Shown here: positions 9,414 through 24,405 of the stretch, piece by piece
Layout: every line of letters begins with the position of its first letter
Numbering within the stretch: the first letter of the stretch is position 1
Made by a program: the position numbers and the translations under genes
Notes under the pieces: model-generated
What the model was told of the DNA's origin: nothing
What the model saw: the letters and a program-made list of their open reading frames with translations, nothing else
Database searches by the model: none
Origin: Pelagibius sp. Alg239-R121
Lineage (GTDB): Bacteria > Pseudomonadota > Alphaproteobacteria > Kiloniellales > Kiloniellaceae
Length of the DNA: 64,000 bases
Assembly: GCF_947331435.1 (NCBI RefSeq)
Contig: NZ_CAMZOF010000002.1
Span: 558,001-622,000 of the forward strand
Reading direction: 5' to 3'

Positions 9414-11874
9414 ACTCCGGATCGTAAAGACAGGGCTCGCAAACGACCGCATCGACGCTCTCGCCGATCACCTCGACCGCAAGGCGGCTTCCGATCGGCG
9501 CAGCGGACGGATCGACGAAGCCCATGGCGATGTTTTTTCCGACACGGTGCCCCCAACCGGCTGAAGTGACGGTCCCAACGACTTCGTCATCCTGCAGAAT
9601 GGAATCTCCGGGCTGTGCAGGTGCCTCGGTGCCGTCGAGGGTCATGGCCGCAAAGCATCGCCGGGGTCCGTCCGAAACCATTCTTTCCAGGGCATCCCTG
9701 CCGATGAAAGTCTTATCCAGTTTGACGAAGCGCTCCAACCCGGATTCGAAGGGATTGAACTCCGTGATCAAATCCGCCTTCCAGTGCCGGAAGCCTTTTT
9801 CCAGGCGCATGGATTCCGTTGCATAGAGACCGAATGGCTTGAGTCCAAAGGCTTGGCCGGCCTCGCGGAGATGCTGGAACGCCAGCGCGAGCTGCGCGTT
9901 GGGGATATGGACTTCCCAGGCCAGTTCACCGGAGAAAGAGACGGACATGGCAATCGCTTCCGCGTTGCCGATAAAGACCTTGCGGACCGACAGCCAGGGA
10001 AAGGCCGCCTTGGACCAGTCGCTTCGCGGCGCCGCTTTGGCCAGCAGATCTCGGGACCGGGGACCGGCAAGCACCAGGATAGTGTAGTCGTTGGTCAGGT
10101 TGCTGATGCTGATCGAGCCGTCGGCGGGGAGCCTCTCCTGCAACCAGTCCCAATCGTGGTACTCGGCAGCGGCGGCCGATCCGTACCAGACCCGGTCCGG
10201 CGCGACCCGGTCCGGCGCGACCCGGTCCGGCGCGACCTGGTCCGGCGCGACCCGGTCCGGCGTCAGATTGGCAATGGTCGCTTCCCCCTTCACGTTCCCC
10301 TGTTCATTCAGAAGGTAGGTCAATGCCAGCTTGCCGGACTTCGAGGGCACCCGCGAGCAAAGGATCCCGTCGAGCCAGTCCCGCACGCCGCTTCCACTGA
10401 TTTCGTAACGGTTGAAGCCGGAAACCTCCATGATGCCGACCCCGGTCTGCACCGCCTTCACCTCCGCGGCAACCACTTCGAAACAATTGTTGAAGCGGAA
10501 GGAATGCTGCTCCTGGAAATCAGGGTCGGGCTTGAAGTAGAGCGCCCGCTCCCAGCCGTTCACCACACCGAACTCCGCCCCCATCTCCCTCAGGCTGGAG
10601 GTCAGCGGCGTGGTCTTCATTGGCCGTCCCGCCGGGCGATGCTCGTGCGGCATGTGGAAGCGGAATTCGTTCTGGTAGTCTTCAATCGCCTTCAATGCCG
10701 TATATTCGACATTGGCATAGCGCGTGAACCGGCGGGGATCCAGCGCCCAGGTATCGTAGCAGGCTTCACCCTGTACCATCATCTGCGCCAACAGCCAGCC
10801 GTGGCCGCCGCCCTCGCCCAGTCCGGCGCGCAGACCGGTGAGGCACCAGGCGTTGCGCCTGCCGGGAATCTTCCCGACCAGCGGCACGCCGTCCGGCGTG
10901 TAGGTGATCGGCCCATTGATGATGGTATGAATACCGGCCTCCTGCAGGCAGGGCAGCCGATTGAAGGTTCCCTCCATGGTGTCGATGCAGCGGTCCAGGT
11001 CATCGGGGCAGAGCGCGTTGGTGAAGTTCGGGTCGATGCCGTCGAGCCCCCAGGTTTTGCAGTCCTGTTCGTAGAAGCCGACCAGAAGGCCGTGCTTCTC
11101 CTGGCGGGAGTAAAAATCGTTGGTTGGACAGCGCAACAGCGGCACGCGGAAATCCAGGGCTTCGATCTCGGGGATGGGCTCGGTCAGCAGGTACTGGTGC
11201 TCCATGGAGGCGACCGGCAGCTCCACGCCCATCATGGCGGAGATCTCGTTGCAGCGGTAACCGCCGGCATTGACGACCATCTCGCAGTGGATATCGCCTT
11301 TTTCGGTATGGACGATCCAGTCGCCGCCCGGCTTCTGCGTGAGGTCCGTTACCGGGGTGTGGCGATAGATCTCGGCACCTGCGTGTCGTGCCCGGCGCGC
11401 CAGCGCCTGGCAGAGCTGCGCCGGATCGATGTCGCCGTCCAGGGGATCCCAAAGTGCCCCCAGCAGATTGTCGGTGGTAATCAGCGGATGACGCCGCTTG
11501 CACTCCGCCGCATCGAGCAGCTCAAACTCGACGCCCATGCCCTTGGCCAGCGACATGAAGTGGCGGTAGCCGTCCAGATGATCCTGCGTCGAGGCCAGGC
11601 GCAATCCGCCGGTGGCATGGTGGTAGTTGATCGGATAGTCCGGATCGTCGGCCAGTTCCTTGTAGAGTTGGATCGAGTGGCTCTTCAGTCCGACCATGAC
11701 CTGGATGCCGCCAAAGTTCGTCACCTGTGCCGCCGAGTGCCAGGTGGTGCCCGAGGTCAATTCGTCCCGCTCGACCAGCACCACATCGCTCCAGCCCTCC
11801 TGCGTCAGATGATAGAGCGCACTGCAGCCGCCGATGCCGCCGCCAATCACAACCACGCGCGCATGCGATTTCAT
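9394..11874 (-). CDS. FAD-dependent dehydrogenase with GcvT domain (dimethylglycine/sarcosine dehydrogenase-like)
   Basis: About 826 residues. VVVIGGGIGGCSALYHL is the Rossmann FAD site, and TSGTTWHSA places a histidine where dimethylglycine dehydrogenase binds FAD covalently. The order is DAO domain (about 1-370), a linker FAO-type domain, then the aminomethyltransferase GcvT fold and its C-terminal barrel, which hand the released one-carbon unit to folate. The start is an ATG at 11874 with AAGGAAG ahead; a longer frame to 11919 lacks this. An in-frame 15-bp repeat adds PDRVA units in the GcvT part. The 3' end overlaps the LacI gene end by 20 bases (convergent). Likely substrate: an N-methylated amino acid. 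Confidence 0.85.
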   Translation of the reverse strand: MKSHARVVVIGGGIGGCSALYHLTQEGWSDVVLVERDELTSGTTWHSAAQVTNFGGIQVMVGLKSHSIQLYKELADDPDYPINYHHATGGLRLASTQDHLDGYRHFMSLAKGMGVEFELLDAAECKRRHPLITTDNLLGALWDPLDGDIDPAQLCQALARRARHAGAEIYRHTPVTDLTQKPGGDWIVHTEKGDIHCEMVVNAGGYRCNEISAMMGVELPVASMEHQYLLTEPIPEIEALDFRVPLLRCPTNDFYSRQEKHGLLVGFYEQDCKTWGLDGIDPNFTNALCPDDLDRCIDTMEGTFNRLPCLQEAGIHTIINGPITYTPDGVPLVGKIPGRRNAWCLTGLRAGLGEGGGHGWLLAQMMVQGEACYDTWALDPRRFTRYANVEYTALKAIEDYQNEFRFHMPHEHRPAGRPMKTTPLTSSLREMGAEFGVVNGWERALYFKPDPDFQEQHSFRFNNCFEVVAAEVKAVQTGVGIMEVSGFNRYEISGSGVRDWLDGILCSRVPSKSGKLALTYLLNEQGNVKGEATIANLTPDRVAPDQVAPDRVAPDRVAPDRVWYGSAAAAEYHDWDWLQERLPADGSISISNLTNDYTILVLAGPRSRDLLAKAAPRSDWSKAAFPWLSVRKVFIGNAEAIAMSVSFSGELAWEVHIPNAQLALAFQHLREAGQAFGLKPFGLYATESMRLEKGFRHWKADLITEFNPFESGLERFVKLDKTFIGRDALERMVSDGPRRCFAAMTLDGTEAPAQPGDSILQDDEVVGTVTSAGWGHRVGKNIAMGFVDPSAAPIGSRLAVEVIGESVDAVVCEPCLYDPEFTIVRT
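10189..10263 (-). repeat. Five-unit 15-bp in-frame tandem repeat inside the GcvT-domain gene
   Basis: GACCCGGTCCGGCGC repeats five times head to tail (10189, 10204, 10219, 10234, 10249) with one internal substitution and one at the end. On the coding strand it gives PDRVA-PDQVA-PDRVA-PDRVA-PDRVW. Relatives normally have only one such unit before the conserved SAAAAEYHDWDWL segment, so about 20 residues are an expansion by replication slippage. Such a tract may vary among strains. Confidence 0.9.
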
Positions 11875-17008: not shown

Positions 17009-17845
17009 CTAGTCGAGAAAGCTCGCTTCTTTCATCGTCTCGGGAAGGGGAACCTGCATCCGGGTCAAAACCGTCGGGGCGATCTGGGTGATCTGTAAAA
17101 GCGTCTCTGGTTCTGGGCCTTTGGCAGGACCGAAATAGTATAGAGCCGTATCCTGCTGATCCTCGCCCCGGCCGCCGTGATGGCCGCGTTCGGACTGCCC
17201 GTGGTCGGCCGTGACGATGATCTCATAACCCGCCTGACGCCAGCGCTTGATATAGGGCGCCAGTTGCGCGTCCAGCAGATAGCAGGACCCGTCGGTTTCC
17301 TCGCAGTCGTGCTTGAAGCGGTGCCCCATGCTGTCGAGCGTACAGCTATGCAGGATACCGTAGTCGATCCCGAAGCGTTCCGTGAGCATGGTCAGCGTTG
17401 CAAAGAGATCCGCGTCGCTGGGGGTCATCTGATTGGCCGACCAATCGCCCGACATGGTGTGAAACCGGCCGTGATTGATGCTGCTGCTTTCCGGCTCGTC
17501 GTATTCGATGTCCCGCACCGGATCGAAAGGCGCGCGATTGAAGAACTCCGACCAGGAGGAATGCGTTATCGCGCCGGTTATGCCGCCGGCCCCGCGGATT
17601 TCCGAGAAAATGTCCGGGACCGAAAGTCTGTTTACGTCATAGTTGCCGGTGCAGCCGTGTACGGCTGGAACCACGCCGGTGTGTATCGAGGCATAACAGG
17701 GCGCCGAGACGGACGGCAGAGGCGCGCGGATTTTCCAGACCCGCGCTTCGCCTGTATCCACCCACCCCTCCAGATTGCCGAAGAGACGGCGCCAATTGCG
17801 CCAGGGAACACCGTCGATAATAAGCAAGAGGAGCTTGTTATTCAT
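17009..17845 (-). CDS. Alkaline-phosphatase-superfamily phosphodiesterase (nucleotide pyrophosphatase-like)
   Basis: 278 residues. LLLLIIDGVPWRNW at the start supplies the first metal-binding aspartate; PSVSAPCYASIHTG carries the nucleophile Ser/Thr region; CTLDSMGHRF and ITADHGQSERGHHGG supply further metal ligands (Asp, His, Asp-His, His). This order matches the type I phosphodiesterase / nucleotide pyrophosphatase branch. There is no signal peptide, so it should act in the cytoplasm. It is the last gene of a four-gene run with a solute importer, overlapping the permease before it by four bases, so its substrate is probably the imported compound or a metabolite of it, perhaps a phosphodiester or phosphonate. 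Confidence 0.8.
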   Translation of the reverse strand: MNNKLLLLIIDGVPWRNWRRLFGNLEGWVDTGEARVWKIRAPLPSVSAPCYASIHTGVVPAVHGCTGNYDVNRLSVPDIFSEIRGAGGITGAITHSSWSEFFNRAPFDPVRDIEYDEPESSSINHGRFHTMSGDWSANQMTPSDADLFATLTMLTERFGIDYGILHSCTLDSMGHRFKHDCEETDGSCYLLDAQLAPYIKRWRQAGYEIIVTADHGQSERGHHGGRGEDQQDTALYYFGPAKGPEPETLLQITQIAPTVLTRMQVPLPETMKEASFLD

Positions 17846-18669
17846 GAGCGGCCTCCTTTCAGGCTGGTGGTGAGTGACAGCACCCAGTCGGCGACCAGGT
17901 TCACGGAAATTGCGAGGGTCGCGATCGCGATGGCGGGTGCCAGGGCCGCGGTGATGCCGTAGACCAGGCCGTCGCTGTTCTCTTTTACGATGGCGCCCCA
18001 GTCGGTGGAGGGCGGTTGAATCCCCAGCCCCAGAAACGACAGGGTGGAAAGATAGAGCACCATGAAGATGAAGCGCAGTCCGAGTTCGGAAACCAGCGGG
18101 CTGAGCGCATTGGGCAGAATTTCCCGCAGCACGATCCAGCCCGTGCCTTCACCCCGCAGTTTGGCGGCTTCGACATAGTCCATGGCATAGATACTCTCCG
18201 CCACCGAGCGGCTCAGGCGGTAGACGCGCGTGGCGTCCAGAAAGGCCATCACCAGGATCAGAACGAGGATCGTCGCCGGGACCACCGACAGGATCACCAG
18301 CGCGAAGATCAGCCCCGGGATCGACATGATCAGATCGACAAAGCGAGAAAGCAGAACATCGCACCAGCCGCCCATGACGACGGCCGTGAAGCCCAGCACC
18401 GATCCAATCGTGAAGGAAATTAGTGTCGCCGCCGACGCGATGAAGATGGTGGTTCTTCCGCCGTAGATCATGCGGGACAGCAGGTCGCGGCCGATATTGT
18501 CGGTGCCCAGCCAAAAGCGCGCGGAGCTGGGTTCCCAGACCTTGCCCACGACCTCGCCCAGTCCGTAAGGCGCGATCAGCGGAGCAGAAAGAGCCATCAG
18601 AAAAAACAGCAGGGTGATGACCAGACCGGCGAGCGCGCTGAGCGGCATCTTCCTTACGGCCTGGATCAT
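17842..18669 (-). CDS. ABC transporter permease, DppC/OppC type
   Basis: 275 residues with six predicted spans and the EAA-type loop DYVEAAKLRGEGTGWIVLREILPNALSPL that contacts an ATPase. WLGTDNIGRDLLSRMIYGGR is the hallmark segment of DppC-type subunits. It overlaps the upstream permease by four bases and the downstream phosphodiesterase by four bases, so the three are translationally coupled. The ATPase subunits that should energise it are not encoded in this window. Confidence 0.88.
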   Translation of the reverse strand: MIQAVRKMPLSALAGLVITLLFFLMALSAPLIAPYGLGEVVGKVWEPSSARFWLGTDNIGRDLLSRMIYGGRTTIFIASAATLISFTIGSVLGFTAVVMGGWCDVLLSRFVDLIMSIPGLIFALVILSVVPATILVLILVMAFLDATRVYRLSRSVAESIYAMDYVEAAKLRGEGTGWIVLREILPNALSPLVSELGLRFIFMVLYLSTLSFLGLGIQPPSTDWGAIVKENSDGLVYGITAALAPAIAIATLAISVNLVADWVLSLTTSLKGGRS

Positions 18670-19622
18670 TTCGGATGCCTCAGTCTCGGGTTGCTGAGGA
18701 TCGCGATCAGATCGGCCGCCGTATTGAGCAGGATGTACACACCGGCGAAGATCAGGCCGGCCGCCTGCACGACGGGCACGTCGCGCTTGGAAACGTGATC
18801 GACCAGGTACTGACCCATGCCCGGATAGACGAAGACCACCTCGACCACCACGACACCGACGACCAGGTAGGCGAGGTTGAGCATGACGACGTTGACGATG
18901 GGTGCGGCGGCGTTCGGCAAAGCGTGGCTGACGATGACCCGGAATCCGTTCAGGCCCTTCAGTTCCGCCGTTTCGATGTAGGCCGATTCCATCACGTTCA
19001 GGATCGCGGCCCGGGTCATGCGCATCATGTGGGCGAGGACGACGAAGACCAGGACGATGACCGGCAGGGCGATCGCCTGGAGCTTTGCCAACAGGCTCAT
19101 GCCGTCATTGATCAGGGAGACCGAGGGCACCCACTGCAGCTTGACGGCAAGAAGGAACATCACGACGTAGCCGATGATGAATTCGGGCAGCGAAATGGTG
19201 GCGAGCGTCACCGCCGAAATCAGCTTGTCCGGCAAACGGTTCCGGTATCGGACGGAAATGACGCCCAGCAGTATGGCCAGGGGCACCGAAACGACCGCGG
19301 CCCAGAAGGCGAGGAACAGCGTATTTCCGAGCCGCTTGCCGAGAGACTGCGTTATATCGGCGCCATTGGTCAGTGCGGTACCGAGATCGCCTTGAAGGAT
19401 CCCGCCGATCCAGGAAAAGTACCGAGCGACAGCCGGCTCGTTCAGCCCCATTTCGCGGCGCAGGTTTTCCAGTGCCTCGGGCGTCGCCGTCTGCCCCAGG
19501 ATCGCCTGCGCGACATCCCCCGGCAGGATCGACGTGCCGACGAAGATCAATATGGTGGACGCGAAGAGCAGCAGCAGACCCAGCGCCAGGCGCTGGATCA
19601 GAAGCTTTAACATCGGGTGCAT
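18666..19622 (-). CDS. ABC transporter permease, DppB/OppB type
   Basis: 318 residues. The first hydrophobic span is followed by ILPGDVAQAILGQTATPEAL, the conserved segment of DppB subunits (D-P-A-x-x-x-L-G type), and the C-terminal loop ETAELKGLNGFRVIVSHALPNAAAPI is the EAA motif. GAGGG about 10 bases ahead supports the ATG at 19622; a second ATG lies three codons on. It lies 14 bp after the binding-protein gene in the same operon. Confidence 0.88.
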   Translation of the reverse strand: MHPMLKLLIQRLALGLLLLFASTILIFVGTSILPGDVAQAILGQTATPEALENLRREMGLNEPAVARYFSWIGGILQGDLGTALTNGADITQSLGKRLGNTLFLAFWAAVVSVPLAILLGVISVRYRNRLPDKLISAVTLATISLPEFIIGYVVMFLLAVKLQWVPSVSLINDGMSLLAKLQAIALPVIVLVFVVLAHMMRMTRAAILNVMESAYIETAELKGLNGFRVIVSHALPNAAAPIVNVVMLNLAYLVVGVVVVEVVFVYPGMGQYLVDHVSKRDVPVVQAAGLIFAGVYILLNTAADLIAILSNPRLRHPK

Positions 19623-19636
19623 CGGGATCGTAACCC

Positions 19637-21193
19637 TCAGGCGAACCAGGTCAGCTTGGCGGCAAATCCGTTCATCATCTGGCTGTAGTGCTGCGTCCAG
19701 CCGCCGAGCTTTTCCGAATAGCCGTCGATGAACTGATTGAACATCGGATTGATCAAGCCGCCTTCCTCCCAGACGATCCGGGCCATGCGCGCGTAGAGCG
19801 CCCTACGCCGGGTCTGGTCCAGTTCGGCCCGCGCCTCCAGCAGCAATGCGTCGAATTCGGGATTGTTGAAGCGCGTGTCGTTCCAGTCGGCGCTGGAAAG
19901 ATAGCCGGTCGACCACATCTGGTCCTGCACCGGCCGCCCGCCCCAGAAGGAGGCGCAGAAGGGTTGCTTGTTCCAGACCTCGGACCAGTAACCGTCGGCG
20001 GGTTCGCGTTTGATTTCCAGCGGGATGCCCGCCGCCTTCGCGCTCTGCTGAAAGAGCTGCGCCGCGTCGATCGCGCCGGGGAACGCCGCGTCCGAAACCT
20101 GAAGGATGATGGGCGATCCGTCATGACCCGACAGCCCGTAGTGTTCGGCTGCCTTTTCAAGTGAGAATGCGCGCTGCGGCAGCGTCTCGTCGAACAGCGG
20201 ATAGGCATCGCTGATCGGAATGTCGTTTCCGACCGATCCGTATCCGTTCAGAACCGTGTCGACCAGCTCCTGGCGGTTGATCGCATACTTCAGCGCCAGC
20301 CGCAGATCCTTGTTGTCGAAGGGCGGGGTATCCGTGTGCATTACGAAGATGTAGTGCCCGCGGCCCGGCGTGATGCCGACGGCGACGCCCGGCGCCCGGC
20401 CCACGAGGTTCGCGATGCGGGGCGGCACCTTGTCGATGGCGTGAACCTGCCCGGACTGCAGGGCCGCGACCCGTGCCGTGTCGTCGTTGATCGCGATGAT
20501 CTCGTGGGTGTCGTAATGGCCGACCTGGCCGTTCCAGTGGTTCGCGAACTTCGCAAAGCTGTAGCGCACCCCGGGCTCTTCCTCGGTCAGCCTGTAGGGT
20601 CCCGAACCGACGCCGTCCGCCGGGCTGTCCATACCGCCGTTCGGCTGGATGACCAGATGATAGTCCGTCATCAGGTAAGGCAGGTCGGCATTGGGGGTGG
20701 TCAAGGTGACGGTGAAGAGATCGCCGTCGGCCTTCATCGATTCGACGCCGCGCATGATGCCGAGTGCGCCGGACTGGGAGTCCTCGTTGGAATGGCGCTG
20801 CATAGTTTTCAGGACGTCTTCGGCGGTCAGGCTCTTCCCGTTATGGAATTCGACGCTTTTACGGATGCGGAAATGCCAGACCTTTCCGCCCTCCGCAGCC
20901 TCCCAGCTTTCGGCCAGCGCCGGGGTCAGCCCGCCGTCGGGCGTGATGTCGACCAGATAGTCGCCAAAGGCATAGAGCGCGTAGGAGTTGGCACTGCCCA
21001 GCGACAAGGCCGGGTCCAGCGTATCCGTGCTTTCGCCGCCCTTCAGGCCGAGGACGAAATGCCCGCCTTTCCTGGGGCTGTTCGCGAAGCCCGCCTGCGG
21101 CAGCAGAAGACCGGCGGAGGTGGCCGCCAGTCCCGCCGCACCACTGTGTTGCAGAAAGCCGCGGCGCGACAGTTTCTTTGAAGGTCCGGTCAT
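19637..21193 (-). CDS. ABC transporter substrate-binding protein, family 5 (DppA-like)
   Basis: 518 residues. The N-terminus is a Tat-type signal (SRRGFLQHSG followed by an Ala-rich stretch), meaning the protein is folded before export. The mature part has the family-5 pattern: VWHFRIRKSVEFHNGKSLTA, GSGPYRLTEEEPGVRY and ALKYAINRQELVDTVL. Members bind peptides, opines, nickel chelates or glycosides; the ligand cannot be told. It is the first gene of the importer operon and lies divergent to a MocR-type regulator with paired direct repeats between them. Confidence 0.88.
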   Translation of the reverse strand: MTGPSKKLSRRGFLQHSGAAGLAATSAGLLLPQAGFANSPRKGGHFVLGLKGGESTDTLDPALSLGSANSYALYAFGDYLVDITPDGGLTPALAESWEAAEGGKVWHFRIRKSVEFHNGKSLTAEDVLKTMQRHSNEDSQSGALGIMRGVESMKADGDLFTVTLTTPNADLPYLMTDYHLVIQPNGGMDSPADGVGSGPYRLTEEEPGVRYSFAKFANHWNGQVGHYDTHEIIAINDDTARVAALQSGQVHAIDKVPPRIANLVGRAPGVAVGITPGRGHYIFVMHTDTPPFDNKDLRLALKYAINRQELVDTVLNGYGSVGNDIPISDAYPLFDETLPQRAFSLEKAAEHYGLSGHDGSPIILQVSDAAFPGAIDAAQLFQQSAKAAGIPLEIKREPADGYWSEVWNKQPFCASFWGGRPVQDQMWSTGYLSSADWNDTRFNNPEFDALLLEARAELDQTRRRALYARMARIVWEEGGLINPMFNQFIDGYSEKLGGWTQHYSQMMNGFAAKLTWFA

Positions 21194-21317
21194 GATTCGT
21201 CTCCCTGAAGCAGGCTTTCCTGCCGTTGGCCGCAGCCTTTCGCGGCGCGCTTCGTTTTGGCCGTTTCACATCAGCCCGTGAGCAAGCGGCTTGTTTCTAC
21301 TCCGCAAAAGCGTACTG

Positions 21318-21354
21318 TTGACATGTCCAGAAATTAAAAATTTGACCAGTCCAG
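21318..21354. promoter_or_regulatory. Paired 13-bp direct repeats, likely MocR operator
   Basis: TTGACATGTCCAG (21318-21330) and TTGACCAGTCCAG (21342-21354) match at 11 of 13 positions with a 24-bp period, placing them on nearly the same helix face. They lie between the divergent regulator and importer operon. MocR-family proteins are known to bind direct repeats with their two HTHs, so this is a good operator candidate. TTGACA may also serve as a -35 box. Confidence 0.7.
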
Positions 21355-21451
21355 TTGGCATGCTGCTGTAAAAGAGCCGGGAGGCACACCCATCGGAAGA
21401 TCGAATGACGGCCTGCCCATCGACGGACTGCTTCTCGATCCCTCGGGCGGC

Positions 21452-22960
21452 GTGCCGATGCACCGGCAGCTCTACAACAGGCTCCGGGAACTGGTACTGT
21501 CGGGCGTTTTGCCCAGCGGGGCCCGCATGCCCTCGTCCCGTGCGCTGTCGGAGCGCCTGGGCGTCTCCCGCTTCACGATCGTCACCGCGCTGGACCAGCT
21601 GATCGCCGAGGGCTATCTGAGGCCGGTCGCGGGCAGCGGCATCTTTGTCGAGGCCATTCCAAACCTTCAGGCGCCACCGTTGGCCTCTCTCGGCGCGCGC
21701 GCCAACACACCTGACAACGCACGCGATGGCACGGCCGAAGCGCCCGAAACAAACGACACGCTTCGGCTGCTGTCACAGCGGGCGCAGAGCCTCTGCTGGC
21801 GGGAGTCCATCTCCAGGAACAAGAGCGCCAGATATCTCCACATGTCCGCGCCCGACCACCGCCTCTTTCCCTTTCAGATCTGGTCGAAACTGACCAAAGA
21901 AGTCATGTCGCGGATCGACAGCCGCACCGCCTACTACCGCGATACGGACGAGCCTTCGCTCCTGGAACAGCAGATCGCAACGCAGGTCGCCTTGAGCCGC
22001 GGGATCCGCTGCGCGCCCGAGGAGGTCGTGACCACCTTCGGCGCCCATCACGCGGTCAGCCTGCTCACCGAACTGCTCCTTGACCCACAAGACGACGTCG
22101 CCTTCGAAGAACCCGGCATGTCGGCGGTTCGTTCGATCTTCCAGTCCCATGGCTGCCGCGTTCACCCGATGCCCGTGGATGCCTTCGGCGCCGATCCCGC
22201 AGCCCTGGATACTGCGTCCCTGAATCCCGCAGCCCTGGATCCAACGGCCCTGTCGGCGCGCAAGGTAAAGCTGGCCTTCGTCACCGCTGCCAAGCAGCAG
22301 CCGCTCACCATCGCCATGCCGGTCAAACGAAAGCTGGAGCTCCTGCTCTGGGCCGCCGAGAGCGGCGCGCTCCTCATCGAGGACGATCTCGGCAGCGAGT
22401 TCCGCTACAAGGGCCGCCCCATTCCGCCCCTGAAAGCCCTGGACCAGGACAACCGCGTGATCTACATCGGCGCCTTCAGCATGTCCCTGTTACAGACCCT
22501 GCGCGTAGGCTACATGATCATGCCCCGAACGCTCGCCGCGCAGTGCCGGCGCCTGATCCAGGTCCGCTACCGCGCCATGCCGCAACTGAGCGAGCAGATC
22601 CTGGCCCGCTTCATCGAAGACGGCCATTTCACCCGCCACCTGCACAAAACCCGGCGCATCTACGCCAGGCGGCAGGAACGGCTCCTGGAAATTCTCCACC
22701 GGAACTTCCACGACAGCTTCGAGCCCCCGGACTTCACGGCGGGCTTCTACAATCTCTGCTACTTCAAGGACCAGTCCCGCGACGAAGACAACATCCTGAC
22801 CCGCTGCAACGACGGCCGGCTCGGAGTGGAGCAGCTCTCCTACTACTACCGCAATCGCCAGGCCCCGAAGAAAGGACTTTTGATCGGCTTTGCGTCAAGC
22901 ACGGAGGACGAACTGGAGCGCGGGATGGAGATTTTGAAGGCGTGTGTGAGGGATGGGTGA
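21452..22960 (+). CDS. MocR/PdxR-type GntR regulator with degenerate aminotransferase domain
   Basis: About 502 residues: a GntR winged HTH (HRQLYNRLRELVLSG...; SSRALSERLGVSRFTIVTAL) joined to a fold-type I aminotransferase-like domain. The cofactor lysine is missing: the segment IYIGAFSMSLLQTLRVGYM has Met (codon 22481-22483) where GTFSKSL is standard. Other PLP contacts also deviate (EEPGM for EDPGY, IEDDLGSEFRY for IEDDYDSEFRY). It probably senses another ligand or none. The start is uncertain: homology continues upstream of the GTG at 21452 into codons for IDGLLLDPSGG, while the ATG at 21405, which has GGAAG ahead, is out of frame. It is divergent from the importer operon. Confidence 0.85.
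   Translation: MPMHRQLYNRLRELVLSGVLPSGARMPSSRALSERLGVSRFTIVTALDQLIAEGYLRPVAGSGIFVEAIPNLQAPPLASLGARANTPDNARDGTAEAPETNDTLRLLSQRAQSLCWRESISRNKSARYLHMSAPDHRLFPFQIWSKLTKEVMSRIDSRTAYYRDTDEPSLLEQQIATQVALSRGIRCAPEEVVTTFGAHHAVSLLTELLLDPQDDVAFEEPGMSAVRSIFQSHGCRVHPMPVDAFGADPAALDTASLNPAALDPTALSARKVKLAFVTAAKQQPLTIAMPVKRKLELLLWAAESGALLIEDDLGSEFRYKGRPIPPLKALDQDNRVIYIGAFSMSLLQTLRVGYMIMPRTLAAQCRRLIQVRYRAMPQLSEQILARFIEDGHFTRHLHKTRRIYARRQERLLEILHRNFHDSFEPPDFTAGFYNLCYFKDQSRDEDNILTRCNDGRLGVEQLSYYYRNRQAPKKGLLIGFASSTEDELERGMEILKACVRDG
22194..22240 (+). repeat. 17-bp direct repeat inside the MocR gene
   Basis: ATCCCGCAGCCCTGGAT occurs at 22194-22210 and 22224-22240 with a 30-bp period, so the reading frame is kept. 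It encodes DPAALDTASL-NPAALDPTAL, an extra Ala/Leu-rich stretch in a surface loop of the aminotransferase-like domain. Like the repeat at 10189-10263 it suggests slippage within coding sequence. Confidence 0.75.
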
Positions 22961-23727
22961 GGTGGGGCAGAGATGGAGTCTGATGGATTAGAGAAGAGAT
23001 GGAGACTACCACTTTGCTTCTATTCCGGCCGATATCATGCAGGACGAGCGCGAACGATGTGATCTCAAAAACTCATCGGCGCATACGTAGGTAACTTAGA
23101 GTTACAAATTGATCGCGAGTTCAATTATTATTAGGGACATAATATTAAATAAAAAGAGCATACATGATCCGTAAACCCTCCATAACTTTCACTGCCGATG
23201 ACGTTGAAAATCGCGCGCTCAGATTTTTCTTTGGCCAAGGTCGTGACGATCCAGATCCAAGCAACAAACTATACCCAGCCTCAACAGGTCTTCGAAATGT
23301 ATAGACAACTCTCCGGCCGCAGCGACCCGGTCGCAGCAACCGAACTTATCCCCTGTCACCGGTGGCTTGGCCGGGAAAGACCAGGAAAGACCAGCGTGGG
23401 GGAAAAAGCAAAAAGGCTCTCCACTGTCCCCAAAAAGGGACGACAAAAGGCCTCAAAGGACCCCCAAGAAGGGCCCCAAAAAGCAAAGCTGAAAGACCGT
23501 CTCAAGAAAGCGGGCCAGAGCCTTGGAACGGAGGGCGGAGTCCGGCTGGTCCCCACTGTCCCCCGTTTAGGCTCCGCGGGCAGGCCAACGGTCACCCAAG
23601 CGACGCCCGGCGACGGCCAAGCCGGCGTTCTATGCCCATTGTCCCCAATCTCCCCGCCATCCCCTTCCCTTTTTGCCGCTGCCGGGCAAGCTGTCTCGTC
23701 CTCTTGAGTTTCTGATCGCGGCGGCGG
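22961..23727. other. 767-bp gap without a firm gene
   Basis: The first part (about 23080-23160) is AT-rich, unlike its neighbours. From about 23380 to 23530 the plus strand is purine-rich with many short A and G runs, including GGAAAGACCA twice in tandem near 23375. A 169-codon frame crosses 23198-23707, but its second half is lysine- and proline-rich low complexity with no family likeness. One small frame at 23164-23304 is listed separately. Confidence 0.5.
23164..23304 (+). CDS. Possible 46-residue protein, unknown
   Basis: ATG at 23164 follows AT-rich sequence and a weak AAGAG ribosome site; TAG ends at 23304. The product starts MIRKPSITFTADDVENRAL and has a balanced composition with acidic and aromatic residues. 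I do not recognise it. It could be a small protein or the truncated front of a lost gene, since the following 400 bp are unusual low-complexity sequence. Confidence 0.28.
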   Translation: MIRKPSITFTADDVENRALRFFFGQGRDDPDPSNKLYPASTGLRNV

Positions 23728-24405
23728 TCACTCCGCTCTCAAACGATAGCCGGCACCGCGGACCGTCTGCAGCTTCTCTCCCTGCTCCCCCAGCTTCCGG
23801 CGCAGGCGGCCGACGTAAACATCGACCACATTGGTCAGGGGGTCTTCGCTGGCACCCCAGACGCTGTTGAGGATGCGCTCGCGGGAGAAGACGCGGCCGG
23901 GTTTGGAGAGGAAGAGCTTCAGGATCTCGCGCTCCTTGGCGGTCAGGTCCAGGGGTTCATCGTCGACGCTGGCTTCCAGGCTTTCCAGGTCCAGGGCAAT
24001 GGCGCCGGCCTGCATCAGGGTTTCGGCGGCGGGGGCGCAGAACTGGGTGGAACGGCGGGCCAGGGCCTCGATGCGGGCGATCAGTTCGTCGAACTCGAAG
24101 GGCTTGCCCATGTAGTCGTCGGCACCGATCTTCAGGCCCTCGACCCGCTCATCCAGGGCGTCGAGCGCGGAGAGCATCAGGATCGGCGTCAGGTTCCGGC
24201 GGGCCCGCAGTTTTCGGCAGAAATCCTTGCCCTGCATGCCCGGCAGGACCAGGTCCAGGACGATGACGTCAAAGCTGTCCTGGCGCGAGAGTTCGGTTGC
24301 GATCTCGGCGTCGGGTGCATGGGTCACCATCCAGCCCTCGGCCCGCAGACCGCGCACGATGAAGTCGGCGACCCGTGCCTCGTCTTCCACAAGAAGAAGG
24401 TTCAT
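23728..24405 (-). CDS. OmpR/PhoB-family response regulator
   Basis: 225 residues: a receiver domain (LLVEDEARV acidic pocket; phosphoacceptor Asp in VIVLDLVLPGMQG; the conserved Lys in GKPFEFDEL) and a winged-helix DNA-binding domain (LTAKEREILKLFLSKPGRVFSRE... VVDVYVGRLRRKLGE... VRGAGYRL). A YMGKPF variation stands for the common YLVKPF. Its start overlaps the stop of a 49-residue frame by ATGA, so the two should be co-translated. The probable partner kinase lies 500 bp upstream on the same strand. Confidence 0.92.
   Translation of the reverse strand: MNLLLVEDEARVADFIVRGLRAEGWMVTHAPDAEIATELSRQDSFDVIVLDLVLPGMQGKDFCRKLRARRNLTPILMLSALDALDERVEGLKIGADDYMGKPFEFDELIARIEALARRSTQFCAPAAETLMQAGAIALDLESLEASVDDEPLDLTAKEREILKLFLSKPGRVFSRERILNSVWGASEDPLTNVVDVYVGRLRRKLGEQGEKLQTVRGAGYRLRAE

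Follow-up and report, generated by a model that had tools for sequence, protein, structure and literature searches.

The regulator gene and the genes it faces

The window (the whole stretch of 64,000 nucleotides that was analysed) contains a gene for a lysine-less MocR-type regulator at 21392–22960 on the + strand. Pfam finds a GntR winged helix-turn-helix domain at the N terminus of the protein (PF00392, 53.4 bits versus a cut-off of 27) and a fold type I aminotransferase-like domain at the C terminus (Aminotran_1_2, PF00155, 48.4 bits versus a cut-off of 19.7). The regulator also scores above the cut-off of NCBIfam's equivalog model for PdxR (NF052282, 371 versus 320 bits), so automatic annotation may call it a regulator of B6 synthesis. 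On the - strand, Pfam identifies a family 5 solute-binding protein or SBP (SBP_bac_5, 19637–21193) with a twin-arginine-type signal (TIGR01409), an OppB-type permease (18666–19622), an OppC-type permease (17842–18669), and a type I phosphodiesterase/nucleotide pyrophosphatase family hydrolase with no apparent signal sequence (17009–17845). A sequence search of the PDB with this phosphodiesterase gave weak matches only, such as phosphonoacetate hydrolase (E = 5e-4).

We assembled a set of close relatives of the regulator, which we refer to as the clade. A contig scan yielded 11 MocRs, 10 of them close orthologs and the other distant, and plasmid records and genome searches added more. Once copies were merged, the clade comprised 18 distinct proteins, although several of these are near-copies (for example, those from Shinella). 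The 17 proteins other than the window's are about 59–68% identical to it and come from Roseovarius, Shinella, Ensifer, Rhizobium, and others. With a threshold of E = 1e-110, its own genome was the sole one of the 385 in the class sample to carry the regulator, which was also present in 6 of 394 genomes from the family of the Shinella genome and in 1 of 394 genomes from the family of the Roseovarius genome; at E = 1e-80, there were matches in 8 of 72,556 plasmid records. The best matches in the three other genomes of its own genus are 37% identical and carry the lysine (L018–L020).

A preliminary description of this locus had stated that the regulator faces an importer operon and had proposed a search for other lysine-less MocRs with the same neighbours. 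The SBP and both permeases are indeed there, but the window's operon, unlike its closest relatives, has no ATPase gene. An ATPase homolog (65% identical) is encoded away from this operon in the same genome, and the window's permeases may borrow an ATPase encoded elsewhere. Across the clade, the divergent SBP is found at all 18 loci. At each of the 10 loci checked further, the gene facing the regulator encodes a family 5 SBP and is followed by one for a type I phosphodiesterase. The permeases are not part of this conserved arrangement: besides the window, 2 of the 10 loci (L039 and L046, where a fused ATPase gene lies between OppC and the phosphodiesterase) have OppB and OppC genes after the SBP and before the phosphodiesterase, and at the other 8 the regulator is flanked by the SBP and the phosphodiesterase without permeases. 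No B6 gene belongs to the conserved neighbourhood (SBP and phosphodiesterase) at these 10 loci. Two Phyllobacterium plasmids carry the phosphodiesterase without the regulator, in an uninformative context.

The open reading frame was originally given as 21452–22960 (+). It exists as given, but the gene probably starts 20 codons earlier, at the ATC codon at 21392, where the alignment of the orthologs opens. (Residue numbers of the regulator are counted from 21392; the start chosen by the open reading frame tool was the GTG at 21452.) Of the 17 orthologs that align at the first shared codon, 7 have ATG there and 10 have ATC; L046 was excluded because its start could not be aligned. The copies with ATC are the window's (21392–21394), L040, L041, L044, L045, L047, L050, L051, L053, and L061. 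In 15 rhizobial copies, codons 2–13 show 561 synonymous versus 130 non-synonymous pairwise differences (the pairs are not independent), while the 12 triplets upstream of the start show 103 synonymous versus 942 non-synonymous changes. Because synonymous differences are in excess downstream of the ATC/ATG codon and non-synonymous ones are in excess upstream, this codon seems to be where coding starts. The window's copy has no in-frame ATG, GTG, or TTG before codon 21; in L047 and L050, a stop codon lies two triplets upstream of the shared start, and codon 4 is a GTG; and a sequence resembling a ribosome-binding site, GGGAGG, lies at 21379–21384 (+), 7 nt before the ATC. An AUC start is apparently the simplest reading of the 5' end of this gene, and a conserved start of this kind could hold down the amount of regulator that is made. 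In the deposited annotations of L050 and L063, the start is set further inside the gene. Within the window's regulator gene, a 15/30-bp tandem repeat at 22193–22252 encodes about 15 extra residues that are absent from the other aligned members of the clade; another 15/30-bp tandem repeat lies at 10189–10262, inside a dimethylglycine-dehydrogenase-like coding gene.

Between the divergent genes, the alignment of 18 loci reveals a conserved, operator-like element at 21321–21356 with the boxes GTCCA, GACCA, and GTCCA. Across the 18 loci, 16 of its 36 columns are invariant, versus 5 of 239 flanking columns, and the element is more conserved than its flanks in 15 of 15 pairs compared. The core occurs once in the window and never in shuffled sequences, and the exact core pattern has one match in the whole genome. 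The exact operator pattern was matched in 3 of 9 clade genomes; it misses most of them because single bases differ between species, and the multi-locus alignment is the better evidence for the element. A scan of 21150–21480 found no sigma-70 promoter, and no Rfam family matched in 21100–23750.

The missing lysine and the cofactor pocket

In MocR regulators such as GabR, pyridoxal phosphate (PLP) is bound to a lysine as a Schiff base. The preliminary description had noted a methionine in place of this lysine, in the segment GAFSMSL, and had called for an alignment with MocR, GabR, and PdxR proteins. The claim was borne out: in HMMER alignments with the GabR and PdxR chains in the PDB, GabR Lys312 aligns to Met364 of the regulator (ATG at 22481–22483, +). 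All 18 distinct proteins of the clade, the window's included, have methionine at this position, versus lysine in 132, arginine in 2, and methionine in none of 134 other MocRs. (The comparison set consists of 4 paralogs from the same genome, 29 proteins from its relatives, 1 from the contig scan, and 100 from further places; of these 100, 90 were among the matches listed in a genome search and 10 are from clade-bearing genomes.) The 18 methionine proteins form a single group, with support of 100/100 and a long stem, in a tree computed from 52 proteins; because long branches meet, the place of this group among the other MocRs is unsure. The two MocRs with arginine instead of the lysine are L118 (genome G053) and L164 (genome G031), and L164 also lacks the EDDY motif; further lysine-less lineages of MocRs may exist.

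Other contacts with the cofactor had also been described as altered, and the HMMER alignment agrees: EEPGM places a methionine on GabR Tyr205, and EDDLGSE places a leucine on Tyr281. The former, Met243 (22118–22120, +), replaces a residue that stacks on the PLP ring; it is methionine in 18 of 18 clade proteins, versus tyrosine in 104 and methionine in none of the 134 other MocRs. At position 333, the clade has leucine (18 of 18) where the others have tyrosine (123 of 134) or phenylalanine (9 of 134). Near the phosphate cup, all 18 clade proteins have histidine at position 219, where 126 of the 134 others have glutamine. Position 301 is lysine throughout the clade (22292–22294, +) and corresponds to GabR His248, a second-shell residue; the other MocRs have histidine in 116 of 134 cases and never lysine. 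Three residues of the site are kept. His150, on the carboxylate side and equivalent to GabR His114, is invariant in the clade. Asp331, which is equivalent to GabR Asp279 at the pyridine nitrogen (22382–22390 with Leu333, +), is present in 18 of 18 clade proteins and in all 134 others, and Arg371, which is equivalent to GabR Arg319 at the PLP phosphate (22502–22504, +), is present in 18 of 18 and in 133 of 134.

The active-site table for GabR in PMC6917764 lists His114, Tyr205, Arg207, Phe250, Asp279, Tyr281, Lys312, Arg319, and Arg430. The counterparts in the clade are, in order, His150, Met243, Ala245, Gln303, Asp331, Leu333, Met364, Arg371, and approximately Tyr485 (the pairing with Arg430 is approximate). 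The aromatic cage of GabR is thus fully replaced in all 18 proteins (Y205M, F250Q, and Y281L). Since GabR positions 205, 207, and 250 are also variable among other MocRs, the strongest departures are at 364, 333, 301, 299, and 219. Met364, Met243, Lys301, Gln303, Leu333, Gly334, His219, and His220 are invariant in 18 of 18 proteins, and so is Ser363. Overall, the clade shows no variation at 18 of 20 positions in the pocket, versus an invariant fraction of 49% for the domain as a whole (p = 0.0002 by permutation, which is indicative because the clade contains near-copies). This suggests that the pocket is under selection and speaks for a pocket that was rebuilt and has not decayed. An AlphaFold2 model of the regulator, built as a monomer from 12 sequences, is of moderate quality (pLDDT 69, pTM 0.62); its best PDB matches in Foldseek are GabR and PdxR, with TM scores of 0.85–0.89 as normalised on the isolated effector domains of those two proteins.

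The preliminary description reasoned that the domain should not form the usual aldimine and that its effector must differ, and this reading is supported, as it would follow from the fixed loss of the lysine. From these alignments, we think that the protein is probably a MocR-derived regulator without the canonical aldimine, with an effector that would bind non-covalently in the former cofactor site.

The cofactor itself might still occupy that site. PLP or another B6 vitamer could be held non-covalently by Asp331 and Arg371, either as the effector or as a structural cofactor, and the regulator would then sense B6 status or a solute that competes with PLP. These two residues are just what such binding needs, both contacts and Ser363 are invariant, and the protein scores above the cut-off for PdxR (371 versus 320). 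However, the cage residues Tyr205, Phe250, and Tyr281 of GabR are all replaced, the clade has a uniform histidine in place of the usual glutamine at position 219, and the conserved neighbourhood is free of B6 genes. We consider retention of the cofactor rather unlikely.

Alternatively, the pocket could be a dead module that serves in dimerisation, and the protein could be a repressor that is constitutive or is tuned by DNA topology. Loss of the lysine alone can mean that sensing is lost: a passage of PMC8739950 describes EnuR with Lys302His as a constitutive repressor, and according to part of PMC10790758, the target promoter of MpaR is no longer active with K314A. But a dead pocket should drift, and 18 of 20 positions are invariant, with the replacements among them, which makes a dead pocket quite unlikely in our judgement.

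A third alternative is that the Schiff-base lysine has moved and that PLP is covalently bound to Lys301. This lysine is present in 18 of 18 clade proteins and in 0 of 134 others, and the residue equivalent to GabR Phe250 follows it two positions later. On the other hand, its GabR counterpart, His248, interacts with His400 and so belongs to the second shell (Table 5 of PMC6677901), and the residues that stacked on the ring are gone; we regard a relocated lysine as very improbable. Finally, there is virtually no chance of a sequencing error or a decaying gene: although the window's copy lacks an in-frame ATG, GTG, or TTG before codon 21, a miscalled lysine codon, which the preliminary description had considered, is ruled out by the methionine in 18 of 18 distinct proteins, and a pseudogene is ruled out by the orthologs, by a frame that is open throughout, and by the excess of synonymous differences in codons 2–13 of the 15 rhizobial copies (561 versus 130).

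Relatives of the importer and the candidate effector

If the regulator binds an effector non-covalently, then its neighbours might indicate which one. The genome encodes a second, paralogous cluster of SBP, OppB, OppC, OppDF, and phosphodiesterase genes (5713–17429 of L072, on contig C1). The proteins encoded there are 54% (SBP), 64% (OppB), 59% (OppC), and 52% (phosphodiesterase) identical to those in the window. The cluster continues with an S15-type hydrolase and a short-chain-dehydrogenase-like open reading frame, and it is convergent to genes for TmpA and TmpB, which both score above their NCBIfam cut-offs. According to a portion of PMC10574752, TmpA and TmpB convert trimethylated aminoethylphosphonate to glycine betaine and phosphate. 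The L072 cluster is a candidate route of uptake and hydrolysis into the trimethylaminoethylphosphonate pathway. Similarly, in Labrenzia, a phosphodiesterase that is 37% identical to the window's comes after TmpA and TmpB.

We considered TmpA as the regulator's partner pathway and rejected it: among rhizobia, 0 of 6 clade genomes have TmpA, whereas the sample of the family has it in 38 of its 394 genomes. Overall, it is present in 1 of 8 clade genomes (not counting the window's own genome).

Relatives of OppB are encoded outside the regulator's locus in all 8 clade-bearing genomes that were searched and in the window's own genome. In three clade-bearing rhizobia (L186, L187, and L188), an SBP-OppBCDF importer (SBP 52–54% and OppB 61–63% identical to the window's) adjoins a four-gene, carnitine-type operon that encodes a carnitine 3-dehydrogenase, an acyl-CoA dehydrogenase, a CoA ligase, and a crotonase; the carnitine 3-dehydrogenase is above its cut-off in both of the rhizobial loci scanned. 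These three importers have no phosphodiesterase with them, and they are candidate oligopeptide-type importers of carnitine or acylcarnitine. Catabolic genes of the betaine type are also present nearby in the window, which has MttB-like, flavin oxidoreductase, ProVWX-like, and dimethylglycine-dehydrogenase-like genes; the last two names come from reading the sequences.

The context of the relatives points to trimethylammonium compounds as the likely cargo of this group of importers, a hint that comes from the relatives of the importer and not from the regulator itself. The phosphodiesterase points to a phosphorus ester as the cargo of this branch. In our tentative view, the effector could be what the importer brings in, or what hydrolysis makes of it, perhaps a trimethylammonium compound with a phosphate or phosphonate ester that the retained arginine would hold. 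Such a compound lacks a primary amine, so a sensor for it would gain nothing from PLP chemistry. The loss of the lysine would then be explicable, because no external aldimine can be made with a quaternary amine.

We propose the following mechanism. A dimer of the regulator would sit on the element at 21321–21356 and, from there, would control its own gene as well as the divergent genes for the SBP, the permeases (where present), and the phosphodiesterase. Non-covalent binding of the effector in the old cofactor site would shift the DNA-binding heads, a role that falls to the PLP-GABA adduct in GabR. More speculatively, a MocR lineage might have moved out of PLP chemistry while keeping the arginine and the aspartate, and the site might now directly and non-covalently receive a phosphate or phosphonate ester with a trimethylammonium group, an effector of a class unable to form an aldimine.

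Comparison with known systems

An early survey states that every MocR-like regulator has the lysine (a passage in PMC2018728), a classification of MocRs describes Lys312 as conserved across all clusters (part of PMC6677901), and the lysine is reported to be conserved in all 278 EnuR proteins inspected (an excerpt of PMC8739950). A regulon survey places Opp/Dpp transporters under GabR and TauR, and the consulted sections of that survey make no mention of lysine loss (PMC5320631). Our searches of an open-access library showed no report of lysine-less MocRs. The papers cited here treat MocR regulators as PLP-dependent. A natural clade with a fixed methionine, a rebuilt cage, and an unchanged genomic target would show how a cofactor-using sensor that derives from an enzyme can become an ordinary ligand-binding sensor, and it makes it possible to test cleanly which functions of MocRs depend on PLP. 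For genes of this clade, names such as PdxR or "PLP-dependent aminotransferase family protein" may mislead.

The regulator resembles GabR of Bacillus subtilis (PDB 4MGR, 4N0B, 5T4J, and 5X03) in its two-domain architecture and its fold, and it keeps the equivalents of His114, Asp279, and Arg319. Unlike GabR, it has Met, Met, Gln, Leu, and Ala in place of Lys312, Tyr205, Phe250, Tyr281, and Arg207. Its best sequence match in the PDB is PdxR of Bacillus clausii (7PQ9 and cryo-EM complexes), from which it differs in lacking the Schiff-base lysine and in having an SBP and a phosphodiesterase as neighbours instead of B6 genes.

The window's SBP belongs to family 5, as do the opine-binding proteins of the AccA/AgaA type (agrocinopine and others), which are distant from it by sequence (E = 9e-27 for AgaA and about 9e-20 for AccA in a comparison with the PDB). 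The agrocinopine system follows the logic of import and then phosphodiester cleavage, and its regulator and hydrolase are from other families than those described here. The genes for TmpA and TmpB lie beside the L072 cluster and, in Labrenzia, beside a gene related to that of the phosphodiesterase, but they are not next to the regulator and do not co-occur with it in rhizobia. EnuR and MpaR belong to the same family as the regulator and show the effect of losing the lysine by mutation. In those proteins, the loss abolishes function, whereas in this regulator the loss is natural and old and is accompanied by a pocket that appears to have been rebuilt.
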